A stretch of 64,000 nucleotides of DNA from Gilliamella sp. ESL0441 (GTDB lineage Bacteria; Pseudomonadota; Gammaproteobacteria; Enterobacterales; Orbaceae), in contig NZ_CP048264.1 in assembly GCF_019469185.1 (NCBI RefSeq), positions 372,001 to 436,000 of the forward strand. Direction: 5' to 3'. Of the stretch, positions 301 to 20,328 are shown one piece after another. Under the pieces are notes generated by a model that worked only from the letters and a program-made list of their open reading frames with translations, had not been told where the DNA came from and did not search any database. The translations under genes and the position numbers were made by a program. Positions within the stretch are counted from its first letter, which is position 1. Each line of letters opens with the position of its first letter.

Positions 301-3006
301 TTAATTTAAATAAAAGCCCAATTCTTTAGAGTAAAAAGATGATTCCTTGTCTGTCTCAACTAAAACAATAATTGCGTTCGGTCTGTGTATTTGTTGTCTG
401 AGTTTTTCTAAACTCGTTTGATCCAGTTGAGGAATCTGATTTTTGATTTTTTCCCATTTTGCACGTCTTAGCGAAATTCGACTTTGCTCCCAAGCATATT
501 CGCTATTACTACAGTAAGGAATAATTTTTTCATTTTGTTGATAAGCTAAATAGATATCAACGCTATCTTCTGATAAACGAGTCGCTACTTCGACTTCGTT
601 ATCCCATCCATTGGTTGAATCACGCTTATAACCTGCATTCAAATTTAATACGCTTTGATTGGCGATTGACGATTTACTTAAATTAGCTCCTTGAGCACCA
701 TAATAACCTTTTTGTAATCCTGCTGGTGGTTCAAGATTTTGTTTATAAACGAATTCAATTAATTGCCTTGCATCATCCGGCATTTTAATGCAACCTTGCT
801 CGGATAGTATTTTTTGGGTATACCATAAATGAGCCGGATTAGGATAAACATAACTGGTATTTCGAAAGGCTGGTTCGTTAAGCCAATTCGCGTTTGGTTC
901 AGCTTGCCAATCTGGGGCAAGCACGGTTAGGGAAGGGGGATGGCGTTCATCTAACGATTGATTTTTTTCATCATATGGCTTGATATTACCCTGTTTATCG
1001 CGAACATGTCGCTGTAAACGTCCAGCTCGTTGTATCAATAAATCTATCGGGGCAATATCGCTGATCATTTCGTCAAAATCAAGATCCAAGGATTGTTCGA
1101 TCACTTGTGTTGCTATAATGACTTTTCCTGCACGGATTTGATGATTGGATGTTTTTCCTGCCCATTGTAATGTTTTTTCTTCAATGTCCAAACGGTCACA
1201 ATAGGCAAAACGGCTATGAAAAAGTAGGATTTGTGTATGATCCAGTTGTAAGTTGAGTTGAATTTGTTGATATAGACTAATTGCATCTTGTACACTGTTT
1301 TTGATCCAACAAATAATTTTACCTTGTTGTATAGCTTTGCTGATTTTGTCTATACCTGCTTCAATATTGTTAATCCATTCGATATTTACTTGGCGTTTCA
1401 CTTCTGGTCGGGTTTCAATCGCTTGTTCAACTAAGCCGTTATGATTAAGCTGTGTCATAAGTGGAAAAGGTAATGACTGTTCTAATTTCAAAGCTTGTTT
1501 ATTGCCAGTTAAGGCTTTATAAAAGGCATCGAGTAGTTTTTGACGCAGAAATAAAGGTAATGTTGCTGTCAAAATAATAACACTGCCACCTTGTAACGCA
1601 TGGTAATGTAATAAGTTTTCGAGTAATTTTACCATGTAACTGTCATAAGCATGAACTTCGTCTAATATCAGTAATTTATGGCGTAATCCTAATAAACGTA
1701 ACGATTGATGTTTGAAAGGCATAATTGCCATTAACGCTTGATCTAACGTGCCAACTCCTACTTCAGCTAATAACGATTTTTTTCGAGTATCAACAAACCA
1801 TTCATTACATTCTCCACTCACTGATTGTTCACCCTTGGGGTATTTTTGCTGGCTAATTTCATCGTGATTTAAAATTGTTTGAGTAAAATGCGGATTCATA
1901 TAGCTAGAGCCATGAGCCAGTACCAGCGAAGGATGGCTATCAGCTTGATATAATTGTTCGTAGACTTGAGCAGTGCGCTGATAAATAGCATTAGCTGTTG
2001 CTTGTGTTGGTAAGCCGATATAGATACCCTGTGCTTTTTTAGCTGTCATAAGCCGATGTGCTAAAATCATTGACGCTTCCGTTTTTCCTGCACCAGTCAC
2101 ATCTTCCATAATAAAAAGTTCTGCGCCATTATCAGAAAGTTGGCAGGTTAATGCTTGTTGCTGTAGTGGTGTTGGTTTTTCAATGAAAGGAAACAAATTT
2201 TTAATATCATTAAAAGGGGTGATTGGCGATGCTGTTGGTAAAGTGGCAATGGCTTTTTCTGCTTTCAACATCGCATGATTGTGCCAATATTCATCAAGAG
2301 GCATGGGCTGTGAACAAAACGGAAAAAATTGTTCATTTGAACCAAGCCAATCACTGATTACGGTCAAACCCGCAATTAACCAACTTATTTGTTTTAATTT
2401 TTTATGATAATTTATATCAAAAAAATGGCAAGCATGGTGTGCTAGATTGCTATCGACAATAAACAATTGATTCAGTGCGATAATATAGTCTAAAGCCGCT
2501 TGTTTATCTTGTTCATTAAATGATAAATTACCATAAGCTTCTCGTTCTGGTGGCTTGCCATGATGTCCCGTCATAATAAGCAGCCATGTGTCATATAATT
2601 CATCAATATCTTCACTATGTTGTTCAAGCTTAACGTTTGGTTGGTGTTTAAGTGAGTTATTCCATAACCAAAAACCAAGCGAATCATGTCTGGATTTATA
2701 GCTTTTAGATGTATCGATGCTGACAAGTTGTGGATTATTATGTTTAAATAATGCTTGGAATCCATTCGCAAATTTGCCAATATCATGCCAAGCTAGAAAA
2801 TAAGCAAACCATAGTGCTGCTTGGTCGACATCTTTTGCAGAAAAACCAATATGTTCAAATAATTGTGATGAGTTAAATATATTTTGTTTAACTATTTGAT
2901 AACCACATGCGGCGACATCTAAATTATGGTAAACAAGTAAGTGATAACTATTATTGTCGGGATTTTGTCGGCATTTTCCCCAATACCGGTAAAACTGCTG
3001 AGTCAC
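301..3006 (-). CDS. cas3: CRISPR-associated helicase-nuclease Cas3 (type I-E)
   Basis: Cas3 is the effector that Cascade recruits to unwind and degrade target DNA. At 901 aa it is close to the family length. The N-terminal HD nuclease shows His27, the HDIGK motif around residues 74-78 and TGHHGKPP near residue 147. The superfamily 2 helicase follows with Walker A TGAGKTEA, the DEVH box (ILDEVHAYD), LTATLP and the late motif QRAGRLQRH. No frameshift is seen. The start is GTG at 3006, with AGGA about nine bases upstream. The gene is odd in position: in E. coli cas3 sits just upstream of cas8e on the same strand, but here it is inverted and separated from cas8e by yejABEF, a YnfC-like gene and frdDC, so it must be transcribed separately from the Cascade operon. 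Confidence 0.96.
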   Translation of the reverse strand: MTQQFYRYWGKCRQNPDNNSYHLLVYHNLDVAACGYQIVKQNIFNSSQLFEHIGFSAKDVDQAALWFAYFLAWHDIGKFANGFQALFKHNNPQLVSIDTSKSYKSRHDSLGFWLWNNSLKHQPNVKLEQHSEDIDELYDTWLLIMTGHHGKPPEREAYGNLSFNEQDKQAALDYIIALNQLFIVDSNLAHHACHFFDINYHKKLKQISWLIAGLTVISDWLGSNEQFFPFCSQPMPLDEYWHNHAMLKAEKAIATLPTASPITPFNDIKNLFPFIEKPTPLQQQALTCQLSDNGAELFIMEDVTGAGKTEASMILAHRLMTAKKAQGIYIGLPTQATANAIYQRTAQVYEQLYQADSHPSLVLAHGSSYMNPHFTQTILNHDEISQQKYPKGEQSVSGECNEWFVDTRKKSLLAEVGVGTLDQALMAIMPFKHQSLRLLGLRHKLLILDEVHAYDSYMVKLLENLLHYHALQGGSVIILTATLPLFLRQKLLDAFYKALTGNKQALKLEQSLPFPLMTQLNHNGLVEQAIETRPEVKRQVNIEWINNIEAGIDKISKAIQQGKIICWIKNSVQDAISLYQQIQLNLQLDHTQILLFHSRFAYCDRLDIEEKTLQWAGKTSNHQIRAGKVIIATQVIEQSLDLDFDEMISDIAPIDLLIQRAGRLQRHVRDKQGNIKPYDEKNQSLDERHPPSLTVLAPDWQAEPNANWLNEPAFRNTSYVYPNPAHLWYTQKILSEQGCIKMPDDARQLIEFVYKQNLEPPAGLQKGYYGAQGANLSKSSIANQSVLNLNAGYKRDSTNGWDNEVEVATRLSEDSVDIYLAYQQNEKIIPYCSNSEYAWEQSRISLRRAKWEKIKNQIPQLDQTSLEKLRQQIHRPNAIIVLVETDKESSFYSKELGFYLN

Positions 3007-11491: not shown

Positions 11492-13687
11492 TTGTCTACT
11501 TTATCTTTATTAGACGAAAACTGGATACCAGTTGTTCATTTCGATGGTCATCTTAGTAAAATTCAACCTAGCCAATTGGTTGATGAAACCATTTCAGATT
11601 TAGCTTATTTAAGACCCGATTTTCAAGGTGCGGCTTACCAGTTTCTTATTGGTTTATTGCAAACCACACTATCGCCCGAAGATAATTCAGAGTGGCGAAA
11701 ATATTGGAATAATGGTTTTTCATCACAGCAACTAACCGAAGCGTTTAAACAAGTCAGAACCGCCATGCAATTTGGCGCAACAAAACCTTCTTTTATGCAA
11801 GATTTTGCACTGTTAGATGGAAGAAATAAAGTACCTATATCGGGTTTATTAATTGAAGCCCCGGGCGAGAATGCATTAAAACGAAATACCGATCACTTTA
11901 TTAAAAGAGATTTCGTCAAGGCAATGTGCCCACACTGTGCTGCTATGGCGCTATTCACTTTGCAAACTAATGCTCCGTCGGGTGGTCAAGGACATCGAGT
12001 GAGTTTGCGTGGTGGGGGGCCTATCACAACCTTAATCATGCCAGAACTGAATAAACCGACACCATTATGGAAAAAGTTGTGGTTAAATGTGATCCCTTTA
12101 GACGATGAAGAAAGACCACAGCAGTTTGATGCATCAGTCTTTCCTTGGTTAGCCCCGACAAAGACCAGTGAACCACCAAAAAATTTAAGTCTATTTCCTG
12201 ATCAAGCTAATTACTGCCAATCTTTTTGGGGAATGCCTCGGCGAATTGAGTTAGATTTTCATCAAACTGAGCAAGGGCAATGTGATATTTGTGGTGAAAC
12301 CTCAACACAACTAATTACCCAATATCAAACCAAAAATTATGGCATTCAATATCAACATTGGCTACATCCACTAACACCCTATCGAACAGATAAAAAGACA
12401 GGTGAGCAACTTGCCATTAAAGGGCAACCGGGCGGCTTAATATATCGAGATTGGTTAGGTATGGTGAGTGCCAATGATGATACGCATTCGGCTAGAGTGG
12501 TTACCACTCATCTTGATCAGAACTTTAAAGATAAACAACACTATCATTTATGGTGTTTTGGTTACGATTTCGAAAATATGAAAGTACGTTGTTGGTATGA
12601 ACACACTTTTCCTGTCTACCCAGATTTTGCGGATCCTAACAGTGATTTAAAAGAGATAATCGCTCAAGTTTTAGCACTCAGTAAAGATACATTCCCGATT
12701 TTGAGTAAAGCGATGACGACAATCAATAAGCAGTCAGATATCCTTGAAATTGCCTTTTGGAAGGAGACTGAATTGCCATTTTATCAGTTTGTAAAACAAT
12801 TGATTGAACAAAAAGATAATTCCAGTGGTCGGCAACTATTGTTAGTTGATTGGGCTAAGACATTATTAGATTATATTATCCAAGTTTATGATAAAGCTGC
12901 TTTTGGCGATCCCAATCAACCTTTTAAATACCTTAAGAATAATAAAACGAATCAAGAAGTTTGTATTCAATTCAGTGCCAGAGAAGAGTTGTTTTCTAAT
13001 TTTTATAAACTTACCTATTTTAAGAAAATAAAAATAGCAAATAACCTTGCTTGTAAAATGGAGAACAAGATGTCTAACAGTTTTATGAAAAAGTCGATTA
13101 TACTCAAAGAAAACCACAAAATAATTATTGATGATTGGTTTTCGATGTTACAACAACGGCAATATGGATTTAATGGGGGTACCTACAATGGAAGACACTT
13201 ACGTGCAAATCTACGTCATGTAACGGACTTTTATGAAATATTCTCTCAAGAAGGCTATCGTATTTTAAATCAAGCTTTGGTTGATCAAGATAATGCATTC
13301 AATGATGACCAGATTCATCAACAAGCATTAGTTTATTTTTCCTGGGTTGCATCATTTGCCGATTCCAACAATGCTAATGCTCCTTTTGCATCACAATTAA
13401 GTGAAAAAGTTCGAGGTGGTGAACGTAACTTTTTATCTCGTTTATGCTTCGAACAACTTTTAGCCAGCCAAACGCCCGAAGAGTTTTGTTATCTCTTAAT
13501 TCAAGCGATAAAAACACGGGGTAAAAATGGTGTCAATCTCTTTTCATTGGCTGATGGCATCTTTTTATGGGTACAAGAATGGCATGAACGTCAACAAAAT
13601 TTACCTTCCAATTCTGATCCATTTAAACGTCTTTCTGTTCGTTGGGCAATGGATTATAACTCAACTAAAAAAACATCAAAGGAATAA
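11492..13687 (+). CDS. cas8e: Cascade large and small subunits fused: Cas8e-Cas11 (Cse1-Cse2)
   Basis: One 731 aa frame carries two Cascade subunits that are separate genes in E. coli (CasA about 502 aa, CasB 160 aa). Residues 1 to about 520 are Cas8e, which recognises the PAM and recruits Cas3. They include the opening LLDENWIPVV, a four-Cys metal site (Cys146, Cys149, Cys264, Cys267), the RGGGPITTL segment and the C-terminal helical bundle. From about residue 545 (DWFSMLQQRQYGFNGG) the protein is Cas11-like, with family-like features in ASQLSEKVRGGERNFLSRL and GVNLFSLADGIFLWVQEW. No separate cas11 lies between this gene and cas7. The start is TTG at 11492, with AAGGAG (11480-11485) six bases upstream. 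The gene opens the cas operon. Confidence 0.9.
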   Translation: MSTLSLLDENWIPVVHFDGHLSKIQPSQLVDETISDLAYLRPDFQGAAYQFLIGLLQTTLSPEDNSEWRKYWNNGFSSQQLTEAFKQVRTAMQFGATKPSFMQDFALLDGRNKVPISGLLIEAPGENALKRNTDHFIKRDFVKAMCPHCAAMALFTLQTNAPSGGQGHRVSLRGGGPITTLIMPELNKPTPLWKKLWLNVIPLDDEERPQQFDASVFPWLAPTKTSEPPKNLSLFPDQANYCQSFWGMPRRIELDFHQTEQGQCDICGETSTQLITQYQTKNYGIQYQHWLHPLTPYRTDKKTGEQLAIKGQPGGLIYRDWLGMVSANDDTHSARVVTTHLDQNFKDKQHYHLWCFGYDFENMKVRCWYEHTFPVYPDFADPNSDLKEIIAQVLALSKDTFPILSKAMTTINKQSDILEIAFWKETELPFYQFVKQLIEQKDNSSGRQLLLVDWAKTLLDYIIQVYDKAAFGDPNQPFKYLKNNKTNQEVCIQFSAREELFSNFYKLTYFKKIKIANNLACKMENKMSNSFMKKSIILKENHKIIIDDWFSMLQQRQYGFNGGTYNGRHLRANLRHVTDFYEIFSQEGYRILNQALVDQDNAFNDDQIHQQALVYFSWVASFADSNNANAPFASQLSEKVRGGERNFLSRLCFEQLLASQTPEEFCYLLIQAIKTRGKNGVNLFSLADGIFLWVQEWHERQQNLPSNSDPFKRLSVRWAMDYNSTKKTSKE
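13060..13072 (+). promoter_or_regulatory. Possible internal ribosome binding site and ATG for a free Cas11
   Basis: Inside the fused gene, GGAG (13060-13063) stands six bases before an in-frame ATG (13070-13072, codon 527). Initiation here would give a 205 aa protein, MSNSFMKK..., covering the whole Cas11 part. This is right at the domain boundary. Internal translation of the small subunit from a large-subunit gene is established for several type I subtypes (I-B, I-C, I-D). Its use here is inference. Confidence 0.5.
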
Positions 13688-13692
13688 TTAAT

Positions 13693-14757
13693 ATGAGTAC
13701 ATTTATTCAATTACATTTACTAACGGCTTATGCCCCTTCTAATTTAAATCGTGATAGCTTTGGACGACCTAAAACCGCTGTAATGGGTAATAGTAATCGT
13801 CTACGGATTTCTTCTCAAAGTTTAAAAAGAGCATGGCGTACCTCAGATTGTTTTTATCAATCTTTAAGTGATCATATTGGTGTGCGTTCGCGTCAGTTTG
13901 CAAAAGATTGGGTATATGATCCGATGGATAAACACGGAATTTCTGAAAAAATAGCCAAAGAAAGTGCCATTAAAATTGCAGGACAATTTGGTAAACTTAA
14001 AAATGAAAAAAAACCAAAAGATCCATTGACTAATATCGAAATTGAACAGTTAGTCCATATCAGTAACGATGAACAACAAGCAATTGCCTCGTTAGTTAAA
14101 CAATTGATTAGCGAAAAAAGGGTTCCAACAGATGACGAAGTTAAACTTTTACGCAAACAAAATAGCAGTGTTGACATAGCCCTGTTTGGTCGAATGTTAG
14201 CGGATAGTCCTGCATTTAATGTTGAAGCTGCATGTCAAGTTTCCCATGCTTTGAGTGTTAGTGCTGTTGCGGTCGAAAGTGATTTTTTTACTGCTGTTGA
14301 TGATTTAAACAATAAACAACAAGATGCTGGCTCTGCCCACCTAGGTGATCGTGGATTTGCCTCGGCGCTGTTTTATACTTATATCTGTATTAGTCGTGAT
14401 TTACTTCTTGATAACTTAAATGGTGATGAAGCATTGGTTGAAAAAACACTAAAAGCATTAACCGAATCTGCTGCCAAAGTGGCGCCAACTGGTATGCAAA
14501 ATAGCTTTGCATCACGTGCTTATACCTCTTATTTATTGATTGAAAAAGGTACTCAGCAACCACGTTCACTTGCTGTTGCTTATTTCAATCCCATCCACAG
14601 CCAAGATATGGTGAATGATGCTATTACAAGATTAGAGCAACAGTTAGATAAGTTTGATCAAGTTTATGGTCAATGTGCGGATGATCGCTACAAACTCAAT
14701 ATTGAAAGTGGAGAAGGGACACTTGCAGCTGCATTAACGTTTGTTGCGCAAAAATAA
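13693..14757 (+). CDS. cas7: Cascade backbone subunit Cas7e (CasC/Cse4)
   Basis: Cas7e polymerises along the crRNA spacer to form the Cascade backbone and cuts nothing itself. Family landmarks are the opening FIQLHLLTAYAPSNLNRDSFGRPKTA, RLRISSQSLKRAWR, SVDIALFGRMLADS, DFFTAVDDLN and SAHLGDRGFASALFY. At 354 aa it is close to E. coli CasC (363 aa). It starts five bases after the cas8e-cas11 stop and 12 bases before cas5, so the genes form one operon. The Cas7 C-terminal part (ARAYTSYLLIEKG) is more diverged from E. coli. Confidence 0.95.
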   Translation: MSTFIQLHLLTAYAPSNLNRDSFGRPKTAVMGNSNRLRISSQSLKRAWRTSDCFYQSLSDHIGVRSRQFAKDWVYDPMDKHGISEKIAKESAIKIAGQFGKLKNEKKPKDPLTNIEIEQLVHISNDEQQAIASLVKQLISEKRVPTDDEVKLLRKQNSSVDIALFGRMLADSPAFNVEAACQVSHALSVSAVAVESDFFTAVDDLNNKQQDAGSAHLGDRGFASALFYTYICISRDLLLDNLNGDEALVEKTLKALTESAAKVAPTGMQNSFASRAYTSYLLIEKGTQQPRSLAVAYFNPIHSQDMVNDAITRLEQQLDKFDQVYGQCADDRYKLNIESGEGTLAAALTFVAQK

Positions 14758-14769
14758 GGAGCGGTCAAG

Positions 14770-15513
14770 ATGATAAAACATCTTATTTTTCAGATTTATG
14801 CACCGCTCACATCGTGGGGAGAACCGGCTGTTGGCGAAGTTCGTCACAGCAATATTATTCCTTCCCGCTCGGCTGTATTAGGTTTTTTGGCGGCAGCATT
14901 AGGTATTCGGCGTGATGATGAGTGTATTGATGCTTTCAATCAGCATTATCATGTTGCAGTTCGCCCTTTTGTTGATAAGAGTCGTTGGTTTAGTGATTTT
15001 CATACTGTCCAGATGCCAAAAGCGAATAAAAAAGAGGTATTTTATACGCGTTTTGATGAAATACGTCGTAACCCCCAAGATCTTGAAACTTTACTTACCA
15101 AGCGTGAATATTACAACGATGTCTATTATCAAATTGTTATTACCGAAACAAAAGGTGCCCCTTATTCTGTAGAACAGATAAAGCAGGCATTATTAACCCC
15201 TGTATTTCACCTTTATGTAGGTAGAAAGAATTCCCCATTGTCATTGCCGTTAGCCCCCGTAATTTATGAAGGGCTGCTTAGTGATGCTTTTGTCTTCGCT
15301 AATGAACATTATCATCAATACCACCAATTAGATCCTGTCCTAAAGTATTTAGTTGATAGTGATGCTAACGAATATTATTGGGATCATCCTGATCAAGAAG
15401 CGCATTTTGACGTAATGAAAATACAACTTCGACAAGATCAGCCCATTAATCGGAAGCGTTGGCAATTTATCAATCGTCAGCAATATTCAGGACACTTAAA
15501 AAGGAGCGAATAG
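14770..15513 (+). CDS. cas5: Cascade subunit Cas5e (CasD)
   Basis: Cas5e caps the 5' handle of the crRNA and contacts Cas8e and the last Cas7. The RAMP-type start (HLIFQIYAPLTSWGEPAVGE) and RHSNIIPSRSAVLGFLAAALGI are the family signature. LYVGRKNSPLSLPLAP is also typical. The length of 247 aa is only slightly longer than E. coli CasD. It follows cas7 with a good GGAG, and cas6e begins right after its stop. Confidence 0.94.
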   Translation: MIKHLIFQIYAPLTSWGEPAVGEVRHSNIIPSRSAVLGFLAAALGIRRDDECIDAFNQHYHVAVRPFVDKSRWFSDFHTVQMPKANKKEVFYTRFDEIRRNPQDLETLLTKREYYNDVYYQIVITETKGAPYSVEQIKQALLTPVFHLYVGRKNSPLSLPLAPVIYEGLLSDAFVFANEHYHQYHQLDPVLKYLVDSDANEYYWDHPDQEAHFDVMKIQLRQDQPINRKRWQFINRQQYSGHLKRSE

Positions 15514-16185
15514 ATGTATTTTTCGAAAGTCGAGCTAAAACTTGAGCGGCTTCCTTATGTGATGCAACAAAAAAGGTTATCTGCTGGTGAATATGCTATG
15601 CATCAATGGTTATGGCAACTGTTTCCTGATGAAAATAAACGTTCTTTTTTATTTCATGAAGATCTTAAGGCTAAAAAACCTCAGTTTTATCTCTTATCTG
15701 AAGTTGCACCGCTTGCCAATCATGAATTATTTAAAGTCGATACAAAACCTTATGCCCCACAATTGACAACAGGGATGAAGTTAAGTTTTTTATTACGTGC
15801 CAATCCTGTTGTTATGAAACAAGGAAAACGTTGTGATGTGATGATGAACGCTAAGTATCAGGCTAAACAACAGGGATTATCATCTAATGAGATAAAATCT
15901 CAGCAATATCAAGCGGCCATAGATTGGTTGATTAAGCAAAGTGAAAAACGTGGATTTTCATTACAACAAAATGATCATTCAGCAGTCTGCTGTAATGTTA
16001 TCAGTTACAATCAACATCTGCTTAATAAAAAGTCAGAACTTAAACCAATTCGTTATAGTAGTGTTGATTTTGAGGGGGTGTTGACTGTTACTGATCCTAA
16101 TCTATTTTTAGCTACACTTTATCAAGGTATTGGTAAAAGCAAAGGATTTGGCTGTGGACTATTTTTAATCAAACACTGTCAATAG
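15514..16185 (+). CDS. cas6e: crRNA-processing endoribonuclease Cas6e (CasE)
   Basis: Cas6e cuts the pre-crRNA at the base of each repeat hairpin and stays bound to the 3' hairpin. Family features: Tyr27 and His30 in GEYAMHQWLWQLFPDE correspond to the E. coli catalytic pair Tyr23 and His26. LLRANPVV is conserved, as is the glycine-rich C-terminal loop GIGKSKGFGCGLF. It is 223 aa against about 199 in E. coli, the difference lying mainly in loops. It starts immediately after the cas5 stop. Its substrate is the 6-bp stem in the array repeats. Confidence 0.95.
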   Translation: MYFSKVELKLERLPYVMQQKRLSAGEYAMHQWLWQLFPDENKRSFLFHEDLKAKKPQFYLLSEVAPLANHELFKVDTKPYAPQLTTGMKLSFLLRANPVVMKQGKRCDVMMNAKYQAKQQGLSSNEIKSQQYQAAIDWLIKQSEKRGFSLQQNDHSAVCCNVISYNQHLLNKKSELKPIRYSSVDFEGVLTVTDPNLFLATLYQGIGKSKGFGCGLFLIKHCQ

Positions 16186-16195
16186 GATATTTGAT

Positions 16196-17409
<1,214 letters not shown>

Positions 17410-17493: not shown

Positions 17494-18254
17494 GAGTTCC
17501 CTGTATACACAGGGATAAACCGTTGTAGTATTCACAACTATACAACCCGATAAAGAGTTCCCTGTATACACAGGGATAAACCGCCTGAAAAATTACCCCT
17601 CATCATTTGTGTCATGAGTTCCCTGTATACACAGGGATAAACCGCAACATTAAATCAATTTTTAGCACTCTAATTGGAGTTCCCTGTATACACAGGGATA
17701 AACCGGAGGCGATTAATGAAATTAACTAAAAATTTCAGAGTTCCCTGTATACACAGGGATAAACCGGGACGAAGACCGTTGCGGGTAATCGTATTATAGA
17801 GTTCCCTGTATACACAGGGATAAACCGTCAAAAATTCTGAAGACAGCCCCCTCGGGAATGAGTTCCCTGTATACACAGGGATAAACCGCATCCGCAACAG
17901 CTTGCCCTTCGCCCTTTTTAGAGTTCCCTGTATACACAGGGATAAACCGAAAACTACAAATTTATTTTCATGGACACAGGGGAGTTCCCTGTATACACAG
18001 GGATAAACCGCTCTCGAATTCGACTCTACGGGGACGATGGCAGAGTTCCCTGTATACACAGGGATAAACCGCACGGCAAGATGCGCTCAGGAGCGATTTA
18101 AAAGAGTTCCCTGTATACACAGGGATAAACCGCCGTCCCTAAATCTTGTCCGCTTTTAGTTAATGAGTTCCCTGTATACACAGGGATAAACCGCCCACGA
18201 ATTCGCTCACTACAAAAATTAAACCGAGTTCCCTGTATACACAGGGATAAACCA
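17494..18254 (+). CRISPR. Type I-E CRISPR array, 13 repeats and 12 spacers
   Basis: Thirteen 29-base repeats start every 61 bases (17494, 17555, 17616 and so on to 18226), with twelve 32-base spacers, all different. The repeat opens with GAGTTCCCTGTATACACAG and ends with GGATAAACCG. CCCTGT (repeat bases 6-11) and ACAGGG (16-21) form a 6-bp stem with loop ATAC. The last eight bases, ATAAACCG, equal the 5' handle of E. coli crRNAs. The last repeat differs only in its final base (A for G), marking the leader-distal end. All other repeats look identical, which suggests an intact array. I found no spacer match within this window by eye. Confidence 0.98.
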
Positions 18255-18338: not shown

Positions 18339-18869
18339 TCATTTCAATTTTTCATCCATCTTTTCATAGATCTTAATTGGCTTAATGGGGAGTAATGTTT
18401 TGCCTTTTACTTCAAACTCAGAATTATTACTGGAGACAACTATTATCTGTCCTCTTTCTAAGTTAAAATCTAAAAGTGCATATGGTTCTACAAAACCTAA
18501 AAGAGAAAACTCCCTATCCCTGTTATCCGGAGGAAATTCGTAATAGACAACTTTTTTATTATATACGTATACAACTGTATTAGAAAGATGTTGAGCTATT
18601 CCAAAGTCAGGATTCTCATCAGAAAATTCTACTTTTTTGACATCAATATTTTGTTCCCGCATTAATGTAATATAAAGTCCACTAATACTGCCACTGATTA
18701 ACCAAACTTCATCCCATTTAAAATTAGTATAATCAGAGAGTGTTATGGTTTGAGGGTGATTTTCTTCTATATCTTTTAATGCTTTTTCTAAAGGTCTTTT
18801 ACTATTGCAACTGGTTAATGTTACTATTGATATGAATGTTATCACTAATAGTATTATTATTTTATTCAT
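18339..18869 (-). CDS. Lipoprotein, paralog 3 of a putative immunity family
   Basis: The 176 aa protein has a lipoprotein signal (IIILLVITFISIVTLTSC, lipobox LTSC). Its core is shared with the two genes upstream: DYTNFKWDEVWLISG, NTVVYVYNKKVVYYEFPPD, LLDFNLERGQIIVVSSNNS and PIKPIKIYEKMDEKLK. I do not recognise a named family. Three tandem copies interleaved with short broken reading frames that resemble one another is the pattern of immunity genes left behind with toxin C-terminal fragments. A lipoprotein immunity factor would point to a toxin acting in the periplasm or envelope. This role is inference. Confidence 0.75.
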   Translation of the reverse strand: MNKIIILLVITFISIVTLTSCNSKRPLEKALKDIEENHPQTITLSDYTNFKWDEVWLISGSISGLYITLMREQNIDVKKVEFSDENPDFGIAQHLSNTVVYVYNKKVVYYEFPPDNRDREFSLLGFVEPYALLDFNLERGQIIVVSSNNSEFEVKGKTLLPIKPIKIYEKMDEKLK

Positions 18870-18879
18870 TTCTAATTTC

Positions 18880-18966
18880 TTAATATTTTTTTGCTTTAGG
18901 TATGGCCATAAACCAGACTATGTCTTCTTGTTTAACCCCTAAATTGTTTAAAACAATTTGTTGGCA
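18880..18966 (-). pseudogene. Toxin-tail-like fragment B (truncated)
   Basis: A 28-codon frame ends LGVKQEDIVWFMAIPKAKKY and stops at 18880. It matches the end of the fragment at 19467-19733 (LGVSEENIAWFKSIPKAKEH). It has no start and no upstream part; the lipoprotein gene at 18969-19463 ends just before it, in a different frame. It is best read as a leftover C terminus from a duplication of a toxin-tail/immunity unit. Confidence 0.55.
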
Positions 18967-18968
18967 GT

Positions 18969-19463
18969 TTATTTCAGTTTTTTATCCATATTTTCATAGA
19001 TCTTAATTGGCTTAATGGGGATTAATGTTTTGCCTTTTACTTCACACTCAGAATTATTACTTGAAAGAACTATAATTTGTCCTCTTTCTAAATTAAAATC
19101 TAAAAGTGAAAATGGCTCGGCAAAACCAAAAATCTCGCCGCTCCTATTATCCGGAGGGAATTCGTAATAAACAACTTTTTTATTATATATGTACACTATA
19201 GTATTTGAAAATTCCTTCCACATTTTGATGGTATCATCTATTCTTTCCACATTAATATTTTGATCTCTCATGAAGTTTAAATAACTTACGCCAACATTTC
19301 CATAGATTAACCATGCTTCATCCCATTTAAAATTAGTATAATCAGATAAGGTTATGGTTTTAGGATGATTGTTTTTTACATCTTTTAAAACCTTTTCTAA
19401 AGGTGTTTTGTTACAATTGGTTAGAAATAAACACACAAGTAACAATAGTATGATTTTTTTCAT
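18969..19463 (-). CDS. Lipoprotein, paralog 2 of a putative immunity family
   Basis: The 164 aa protein has the signal MKKIILLLLVCLFLTNC (lipobox LTNC). It shares DYTNFKWDEAWLIYG, NTIVYIYNKKVVYYEFPPD, LLDFNLERGQIIVLSSNNS and PIKPIKIYENMDKKLK with its neighbours. The middle section (residues about 65-90) is the most different part among the three copies, as expected if it determines binding specificity. The start lies three bases after the end of toxin-tail fragment A. Function not recognised. Confidence 0.75.
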   Translation of the reverse strand: MKKIILLLLVCLFLTNCNKTPLEKVLKDVKNNHPKTITLSDYTNFKWDEAWLIYGNVGVSYLNFMRDQNINVERIDDTIKMWKEFSNTIVYIYNKKVVYYEFPPDNRSGEIFGFAEPFSLLDFNLERGQIIVLSSNNSECEVKGKTLIPIKPIKIYENMDKKLK

Positions 19464-19466
19464 TAT

Positions 19467-19733
19467 TTAATGCTCTTTTGCTTTAGGAATGCTTTTAAAC
19501 CATGCTATATTTTCTTCACTAACACCTAGTTTTTTCAATTTTTCATCCCAAGCATTTTCTAAATAATAGCCATAGCGATTCATTAGGTTGACTGCTTGTT
19601 TGAGTTCATCGTATTGTTTATTAGGCAATTTAGTTTGTACTGCTAGATATTTTCCTTCTTCTGTTTTTCTAGCCTCCCATAAGCCATGTTCATGATAATA
19701 ATCTAACACTTTGTCTGATAATTCATTATCGGT
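19467..19733 (-). pseudogene. Toxin-tail-like fragment A (lacks its N-terminal part)
   Basis: The frame opens directly after the stop of the lipoprotein gene at 19734 and runs 88 codons (TDNELSDKVLDYYHEHG at the start, WFKSIPKAKEH at the end). An ATG occurs at 19709, which would give an 80 aa protein, but the frame continues upstream of it without a start. It looks like the C-terminal end of a longer protein, such as a polymorphic or secreted toxin. The family is not recognised. It could also be a small intact gene started at 19709. Confidence 0.5.
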
Positions 19734-20246
19734 TTATTTCAATTTTTCATCCATGTTTTCATAGATTTTAATCGGCTTAATGGGAACTAAATCTCCATCT
19801 TTTACTTCACATACAGAATTATTACTGGAAACAACTATAATCTGCCCTCTTTCTAGTTTAAAATCTAAAAGAGCTAATGCTCCTTCTGAAGCTAAACCCA
19901 CATAATCCCTGGCATCTGGAGGAAATTCGTAATAAACTACTTTGTTATTATATACATATACAACTGTATTTGAGAATTCTTGAGCAATTCCATATTTCAA
20001 TTTAGGTATTTTTATTTTTTTGACATCAATATTTTTTTCTCGCATTAATATGATATACCTTCCACCAATACTGCCACTGATTAACCAAACTTCATCCCAT
20101 TTAAAATTAGTATAATCAGATAAGGTTATGGTTTTAGGATGATTGTTTTTTACATCTTTTAAAACCTTTTCTAAAGGTGTTTTGTTACAACTGGTTAATG
20201 TTACTATTGACATAAATGTGACTAATAGTAGGAGTATTTTTTTCAT
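19734..20246 (-). CDS. Lipoprotein, paralog 1 of a putative immunity family
   Basis: This is a 170 aa protein if started at the ATG at 20246, which gives a clean lipoprotein signal, MKKILLLLVTFMSIVTLTSC. An upstream in-frame ATG at 20282 would add 12 residues (MLRKKINLECQR) that spoil the signal. It shares DYTNFKWDEVWLISGSIGG and NNKVVYYEFPPD with the other two copies and ends PIKIYENMDEKLK. In another frame, the bases just upstream read LIWNAKE-stop, loosely like the end of the toxin tails, so a third, more decayed tail may precede it. Confidence 0.75.
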   Translation of the reverse strand: MKKILLLLVTFMSIVTLTSCNKTPLEKVLKDVKNNHPKTITLSDYTNFKWDEVWLISGSIGGRYIILMREKNIDVKKIKIPKLKYGIAQEFSNTVVYVYNNKVVYYEFPPDARDYVGLASEGALALLDFKLERGQIIVVSSNNSVCEVKDGDLVPIKPIKIYENMDEKLK

Positions 20247-20328
20247 TCTTTGGCATTCCAGATTAATTTTCTTTCGCAACACAGTTTTAAATACTCATTA
20301 ATACTACTATGAATTGTTTATTAAACAA

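Follow-up and report, generated by a model that had tools for sequence, protein, structure and literature searches.

A Cas8e-Cas11 fusion with a retained internal start site in a type I-E CRISPR-Cas locus of Gilliamella

We found that cas8e and cas11 of a type I-E CRISPR-Cas locus were joined in one reading frame in a 64,000-nucleotide stretch of the Gilliamella sp. ESL0441 genome (hereafter the window). The ribosome-binding sequence and start codon of the former cas11 gene were retained inside the fused frame. We lean, with moderate confidence, towards the explanation that the gene would yield both the fusion and a free Cas11 from the internal start, which together would make up an ordinary Cascade with one Cas8e and two Cas11. 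We consider the finding to be of moderate interest: the fusion is a solid fact and the mechanism is testable, while the function is what we infer from sequence, with near-neutral tolerance as a real rival.

The fused gene and its CRISPR-Cas locus

The features of the locus were as follows (window coordinates).

301 to 3006, minus strand: cas3, HD nuclease and helicase, 901 amino acids, apart from the other cas genes (TIGR01596 and TIGR01587 above cut-off)
11492 to 13687, plus strand: cas8e-cas11 fused gene, 731 codons in one frame, TTG start (TIGR02547 and TIGR02548)
11492 to 13027, plus strand: Cas8e part, residues 1-512, with Cas8e itself at 4-512
13024 to 13034, plus strand: A-rich tract that lacks one base relative to the split sister G027, so that the frame runs past the old cas8e stop
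13028 to 13105, plus strand: linker, about residues 513-538 (about 26 residues), with pLDDT below 50 at 519-534
13060 to 13063, plus strand: internal Shine-Dalgarno GGAG, retained, with six bases between it and the internal ATG (13070)
13070 to 13687, plus strand: Cas11 (Cse2) part, residues 527-731, starting at the ATG of the former cas11 gene
13693 to 14757, plus strand: cas7 (Cse4/CasC; TIGR01869)
14770 to 15513, plus strand: cas5e (TIGR01868; Cas5 families alone at E up to 0.001)
15514 to 16185, plus strand: cas6e (TIGR01907)
16196 to 17113, plus strand: cas1e (TIGR03638)
17116 to 17409, plus strand: cas2e (TIGR01873)
17494 to 18254, plus strand: CRISPR array of 13 repeats of 29 bases and 12 spacers of 32 bases

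The original prediction had placed Cas8e and Cas11 in one frame, and this was borne out. NCBIfam profiles matched Cse1/CasA at residues 5-483 and Cse2/CasB at residues 546-722 of the 731-codon frame, both above their curated cut-offs (384.3 bits against 70.05 for TIGR02547), and Pfam was concordant on both parts. The second match lies in the C-terminal stretch of about 200 residues for which a profile search had been proposed, and it assigned this stretch to the Cas11 (Cse2) family of type I-E (TIGR02548). The two proteins, which a type I-E system is expected to encode as separate genes, were thus in a single frame in the window.

In the structure model, the junction was predicted to be disordered and to lie between two folded domains, and in the fold comparison both parts aligned to chains of E. 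coli Cascade. The top 10 Foldseek rows for the Cas11 model were CasB/Cse2 or Cascade entries, the best with an E value of 0.017 and none reaching 0.001. By sequence, the Cas11 part matched no PDB chain at E up to 10, although the folds match.

The fused frame was also found in independent copies. A database protein (P0001; 731 amino acids, 98-99% identical to the window fusion, both Pfam domains) represents 16 member sequences, and strain wkB308 (L001), which we took as one genome with G013, has the fused frame in its own assembly at 87% identity over residues 1-731. Relatives of the window at 66-87% identity were Gilliamella. Residue 50 of the window Cas11 (residue 576 of the fusion) is His, as it is in P0001, and was Arg in 11 of the 12 aligned Cas11 rows. 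The window Cas11 had the lowest TIGR02548 score among the 20 Gilliamella matches.

Cas7, Cas5e, Cas6e, Cas1e and Cas2e each scored above the cut-off of the type I-E families listed above. Cas3 carried both the HD and the helicase domain, and scored 465.9 bits with the Cas3 equivalog NF007248, below its cut-off of 569. The system differs from I-E2 (Cas5-HNH), in which Cas3 is usually absent, because Cas5 matched Cas5 families only (E up to 0.001), without an HNH match, and Cas3 is present. In all four Gilliamella loci found to be fused, cas7, cas5, cas6, cas1 and cas2 were full-length, and decay of the system was rejected since none of these genes was broken. The cas3 gene was open and full-length in all 12 Gilliamella genomes searched, the four fused ones included; in these 12 it was on the strand opposite to cas8e, at a distance of 8.2-9.4 kb (301-3006 in the window, and 11 others).

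The four fused loci had arrays of 13, 5, 14 and 17 repeats, or of 13, 6, 14 and 18 when one additional mismatch was tolerated. Among ten arrays from the 20 Gilliamella loci, no spacer was shared at up to 3 mismatches, so that arrays turn over in the fused lineages too, which speaks for adaptation, not for interference. No target was found when the whole window array was compared with 50,697 phage records at E 0.1, or when 3 of its 12 spacers were searched as exact patterns in viral contigs.

Between cas3 and cas8e lay genes for a putative peptide transporter, judged by eye, and for fumarate reductase subunits C and D (PF02300 and PF02313; 10232-11037, minus strand), which end 455 bases before cas8e. 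The frdC gene was the sole PF02300 match in the genome, no frdA was found in the genome above the TIGR01176 cut-off, and the CRISPR locus sits as though in place of frdAB. Adjoining the CRISPR array, at 18339-20282 on the minus strand, were three small lipoprotein-like paralogues and, between them, an 80-codon frame, with no Pfam match. Their layout is reminiscent of the immunity-gene arrays of polymorphic toxins.

Distribution and origin of the fusion

A TIGR02548 match was present in 20 of 35 Gilliamella genomes, and in four of the 20 (the window genome G000, G013, G015 and G016) it lay in a frame of more than 700 codons. Reading of the loci gave the same four as fused and 16 as split; the outgroup B14 was split. 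Each fused genome had one Cas11 match, with G015 only 74% complete.

Beyond the genus, TIGR02548 matched 37 of 394 genomes in an Enterobacterales sample (23 of them outside Gilliamella), 35 others above the cut-off in a class sample of 369, and 19 further ones above the cut-off, not counted before, in a phylum sample of 398. Judged by frame length, the fusion was present in none of the 77 distinct non-Gilliamella Pseudomonadota genomes with a match. The longest Cas11 frames among the 77 were 567 codons (G360) and 416 codons (G908), and the remaining 75 were at most 372. G360 was rejected as a fusion because its cas8e is in a different frame from the one holding Cas11, and G908, by length alone, because its frame is too short for a whole Cas8e and Cas11. 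Two long-frame candidates below the family cut-off (G126 and G124) were matched by none of four queries, which were Cas8e or fusion sequences. The difference between 4/20 and 0/77 gave a Fisher p of 0.0014 assuming independent genomes, which they are not, and 0.007 with three events.

In another genome (G229, L040:2748-3797), two TIGR02548 stretches were found in one 350-residue protein, possibly a covalent Cas11 pair. The preceding frame looked Cas8e-like by eye, yet did not match any of the four queries.

The protein search scored 4,499 relatives, and of the 120 best, which were listed, five had both Pfam domains: P0001 and P0016-P0019. The latter four are 716-744 amino acids long, exceed the cut-offs of both the Cse1 and the Cse2 NCBIfam families, and are known as protein only; one is labelled Serratia rubidaea and three are without a name. 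The fused frames of G013, G015 and G016 were absent as fused from the best 120, so 90%-identity clusters or database gaps hide fused members. When the Cas11 part of P0017 served as the query, only P0017 and P0018 were returned and P0016 and P0019 were missed, so that such searches overlook fusions; fusions can also carry the plain Cse1/CasA name in databases, as P0017 does. Of 40 records obtained in a plasmid search with P0017, 4 had at least 80% coverage, and H1 and H5 were annotated with separate casA and casB.

Next to the former cas8e stop lie three different one-base indels. Compared with G027, G000 and G013 are one base short in an A-run; in G015, an additional base disrupts the TGA present in G012 and G005; and G016 carries one additional base near an A-run compared with G021. 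Separate trees of the two parts, Cas8e and Cas11, with 21 rows in each, both gave three state changes, which well-supported branches force, and holding the four fused rows together was rejected on either tree. The fusion is therefore not fixed in the lineage, a question that the original prediction had left to the comparison of related genomes. Three changes could equal one gain and two losses, and membership of the fused group was set by the trait itself, after a quick tree; the DNA lesions, however, speak for separate gains. Each of G015 and G016 is an isolated tip with split sisters. G000 and G013, which lack the same base, likely share one event, though not firmly so; their fork was not resolved on either tree, and the split G025 falls in the same Cas8e fork. 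Between G025 (L021) and the window, dS was 0.26 in cas8e, 0.93 in cas11 and 1.51 in cas7, and recombination near the cas8e-cas11 junction is likely in G025.

The fused frame has remained open in both G000 and G013, which are separated by a dS of 0.19 (cas8e) and 0.37 (cas11), and their 34 linker codons differ by 6 synonymous and 7 non-synonymous changes, with no stop and no shift. In the 16 split Gilliamella genes, the frame offset between cas8e and cas11 was 0 in 3, 1 in 3 and 2 in 10.

We also compared end-branch lengths on a fixed topology of 19 Gilliamella (without G025 and B14). The cas11/cas8e ratio was 2.8-5.1 for the four fused genes and 0.3-4.5 for the 15 split ones (U 57 of 60, p 0.004), and the cas7/cas8e ratio was 1.7-2.5 and 0.3-1.5, respectively (U 60 of 60, p 0.0005), in a test that was chosen post hoc after the trees and whose rows are related. 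The faster change of cas11 and cas7 on fused branches is not specific to cas11, and could fit relaxed constraint and adjustment to a tether alike.

The retained internal start and the products of the fused gene

All four fused genes kept a Shine-Dalgarno sequence (GGAGA) and an ATG at the site where split relatives begin cas11. An in-frame start with a ribosome-binding site before the Cas11 domain, of the kind known in types I-B, I-C and I-D, was thus present in 4/4. The primary paper on internally translated Cas11 is reportedly McBride 2020. Predicted duplex energies with the 16S tail were -6.4 (G000), -6.4 (G013), -6.4 (G016) and -8.9 (G015) kcal/mol, compared with -5.2 to -9.3 in the 16 split Gilliamella genes, and in G000, G013, G016 and G015, respectively, 1 of 47, 1 of 50, 3 of 46 and none of 52 further ATGs equalled this energy. 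The linker keeps ATG GAG and AAG ATG between G000 and G013; in the window, another ATG lies at 13058, four codons upstream of 13070. A Met near the start of the Cas11 part was found in each of P0016-P0019, as known from the protein alone.

RNA folding predicted the internal start region to be more paired than most other ATGs in G000, G013 and G015, where 36 of 43, 43 of 45 and 35 of 48 other ATGs were equally or more open, and to be more open in G016 (6 of 40). RNA accessibility thus gave no support for the internal start in three of the four fused genes (three split genes were run alongside).

We propose that the full frame would give a Cas8e-Cas11 fusion, which would act as the Cas8e subunit and hold one Cas11 on a tether. 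Each type I-E Cascade contains one Cas8 and two Cas11 (PMC12235044). In E. coli, the four-helix bundle of Cse1 touches Cse2.2 and Cse2.1 contacts Cas6e (PMC5965380), which makes a tether at Cse2.2 plausible. The tethered Cas11 would therefore probably be the copy next to Cas8e, and the 26-residue linker could reach the Cse2.2 place. A free Cas11, which could still be made because GGAG (13060-13063) and ATG (13070) are intact, would be translated from the internal start as the second copy. The original prediction had reasoned that a covalent link must either alter the stoichiometry or fix the first Cas11. The link itself stands, but with the start signal of the former cas11 intact, neither consequence can be deduced from the sequence, and a forced change of stoichiometry is not supported.

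Two products from one gene are suggested by the start kept in 4/4, the open frame, the intact cas genes, the predicted disorder of the junction and the precedent of types I-B, I-C and I-D. Against them speak the RNA folding, a possible relaxed constraint on the fused branches, the His and low score of the window Cas11, the reported dispensability of Cas11 in E. coli and the absence of spacer targets in our searches; the start signal may also have been kept merely since the fusions are young. A further reading, which we regard as doubtful, is that the tether plus free Cas11 is favoured in these Gilliamella lineages, that cas11 and cas7 are adapting to the tether, and that the genus thereby shows, repeatedly and at present, how the large and small subunits become one gene with an internal start. 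If true, one base change in a type I-E operon could suffice to produce the I-B/I-C/I-D arrangement.

The main rival is a near-neutral accident, a possible explanation that we nevertheless hold to be on the unlikely side. Indels in the A-rich junction would fuse the genes at times, and the fusion would be tolerated owing to a flexible linker and a largely dispensable Cas11 and usually lost again, with no functional gain. All the lesions are one-base indels, G015 and G016 each form a lone tip next to split sisters, and the frame offset is already variable in the split genes. E. coli Cas11 was reported to be dispensable for silencing and plasmid interference (PMC12235044), and the faster change of cas11 and cas7 fits as well. 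This explanation, however, does not sit well with a frame that is open in both G000 and G013 at dS 0.2-0.4, with the full-length remaining cas genes of the four fused loci, or with a fusion in 4/20 loci of the genus against 0/77 other Pseudomonadota genomes sampled.

It is improbable that only the fusion is made, the internal start being silent and Cascade consisting of one Cas8e and one Cas11, which is the 1:1 case of the original prediction. The fused frame is real and the start region is rather paired in G000 and G013, but the Shine-Dalgarno and ATG are kept in 4/4, and a single copy would leave a gap, because in E. coli Cse2.2 contacts Cse1 and Cse2.1 contacts Cas6e (PMC5965380). Far less probable is phase variation or programmed slippage, in which an A-tract would toggle the fused and split states via replication slippage or frameshifting. 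The lesions of G000/G013 and G016 are in or beside A-runs, but the frame offset varies among split strains, so no single conserved shift would fuse them, and a programmed frameshift is disfavoured for this reason. A sequencing or assembly error in a homopolymer was rejected as having a negligible chance: the window lesion is a one-base A-run difference and G000 is a one-contig genome, but P0001, from other data, and wkB308, in its own assembly, are both fused.

Comparison with known systems

The locus resembles the E. coli type I-E system in its core genes and cas3, in the 29-base repeat and 32-base spacers, and in the alignment of both parts of the fusion to Cascade chains. It differs in that Cas8e/Cse1 and Cas11/Cse2 are separate in E. 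coli and in one frame here, and in that cas3 lies apart on the other strand.

Joined large and small subunits have been described in other subtypes. In an early analysis, the large subunits of several type I subtypes were proposed to end in small-subunit regions, with the small subunit encoded separately in I-E (PMC3150331). The 2025 classification notes fusions of small to large subunits across several type I subtypes (PMC12669027). In types I-D, I-B and I-C, Cas11 is produced from an in-frame internal start of the large-subunit gene (PMC10212523, PMC9123187, PMC11899642). The Gilliamella genes share with these types a large and a small subunit in one frame with an internal start site. The arrangement is widely conserved there, whereas in Gilliamella it is patchy within one type I-E genus with split sisters, and the internal translation is putative.

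A cas8-cas11 fusion is mentioned in one sentence for some HNH-nuclease type I systems (PMC10910872). Those systems have an HNH domain and are mostly without Cas3, whereas the window has Cas5 families only and Cas3. I-E3 also has a Cas11 fusion in type I-E, with a PD-(D/E)xK nuclease as the partner in place of Cas8e (PMC12669027). P0016-P0019 are likewise fused Cse1-Cse2 with both families, at about 40% identity. In the partial text of the open-licence literature on fusion, internal translation, structure and Gilliamella, we found no description of fused Cas8e and Cas11 in a type I-E system that has Cas3, lacks HNH and has split sisters; the sentence in PMC10910872 was the nearest.

Split and fused forms occur side by side in one genus, and the reading frames of sister pairs differ by one base at the junction. 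Because such pairs coexist, direct tests become possible of the fusion step, of whether the internal start is used and of how the tether affects the make-up of Cascade. A review of type I-D states, from comparison, that cas11d appears to have been fused onto cas10 with its start site retained (PMC10212523), and the Gilliamella pairs show a fusion step of this kind.
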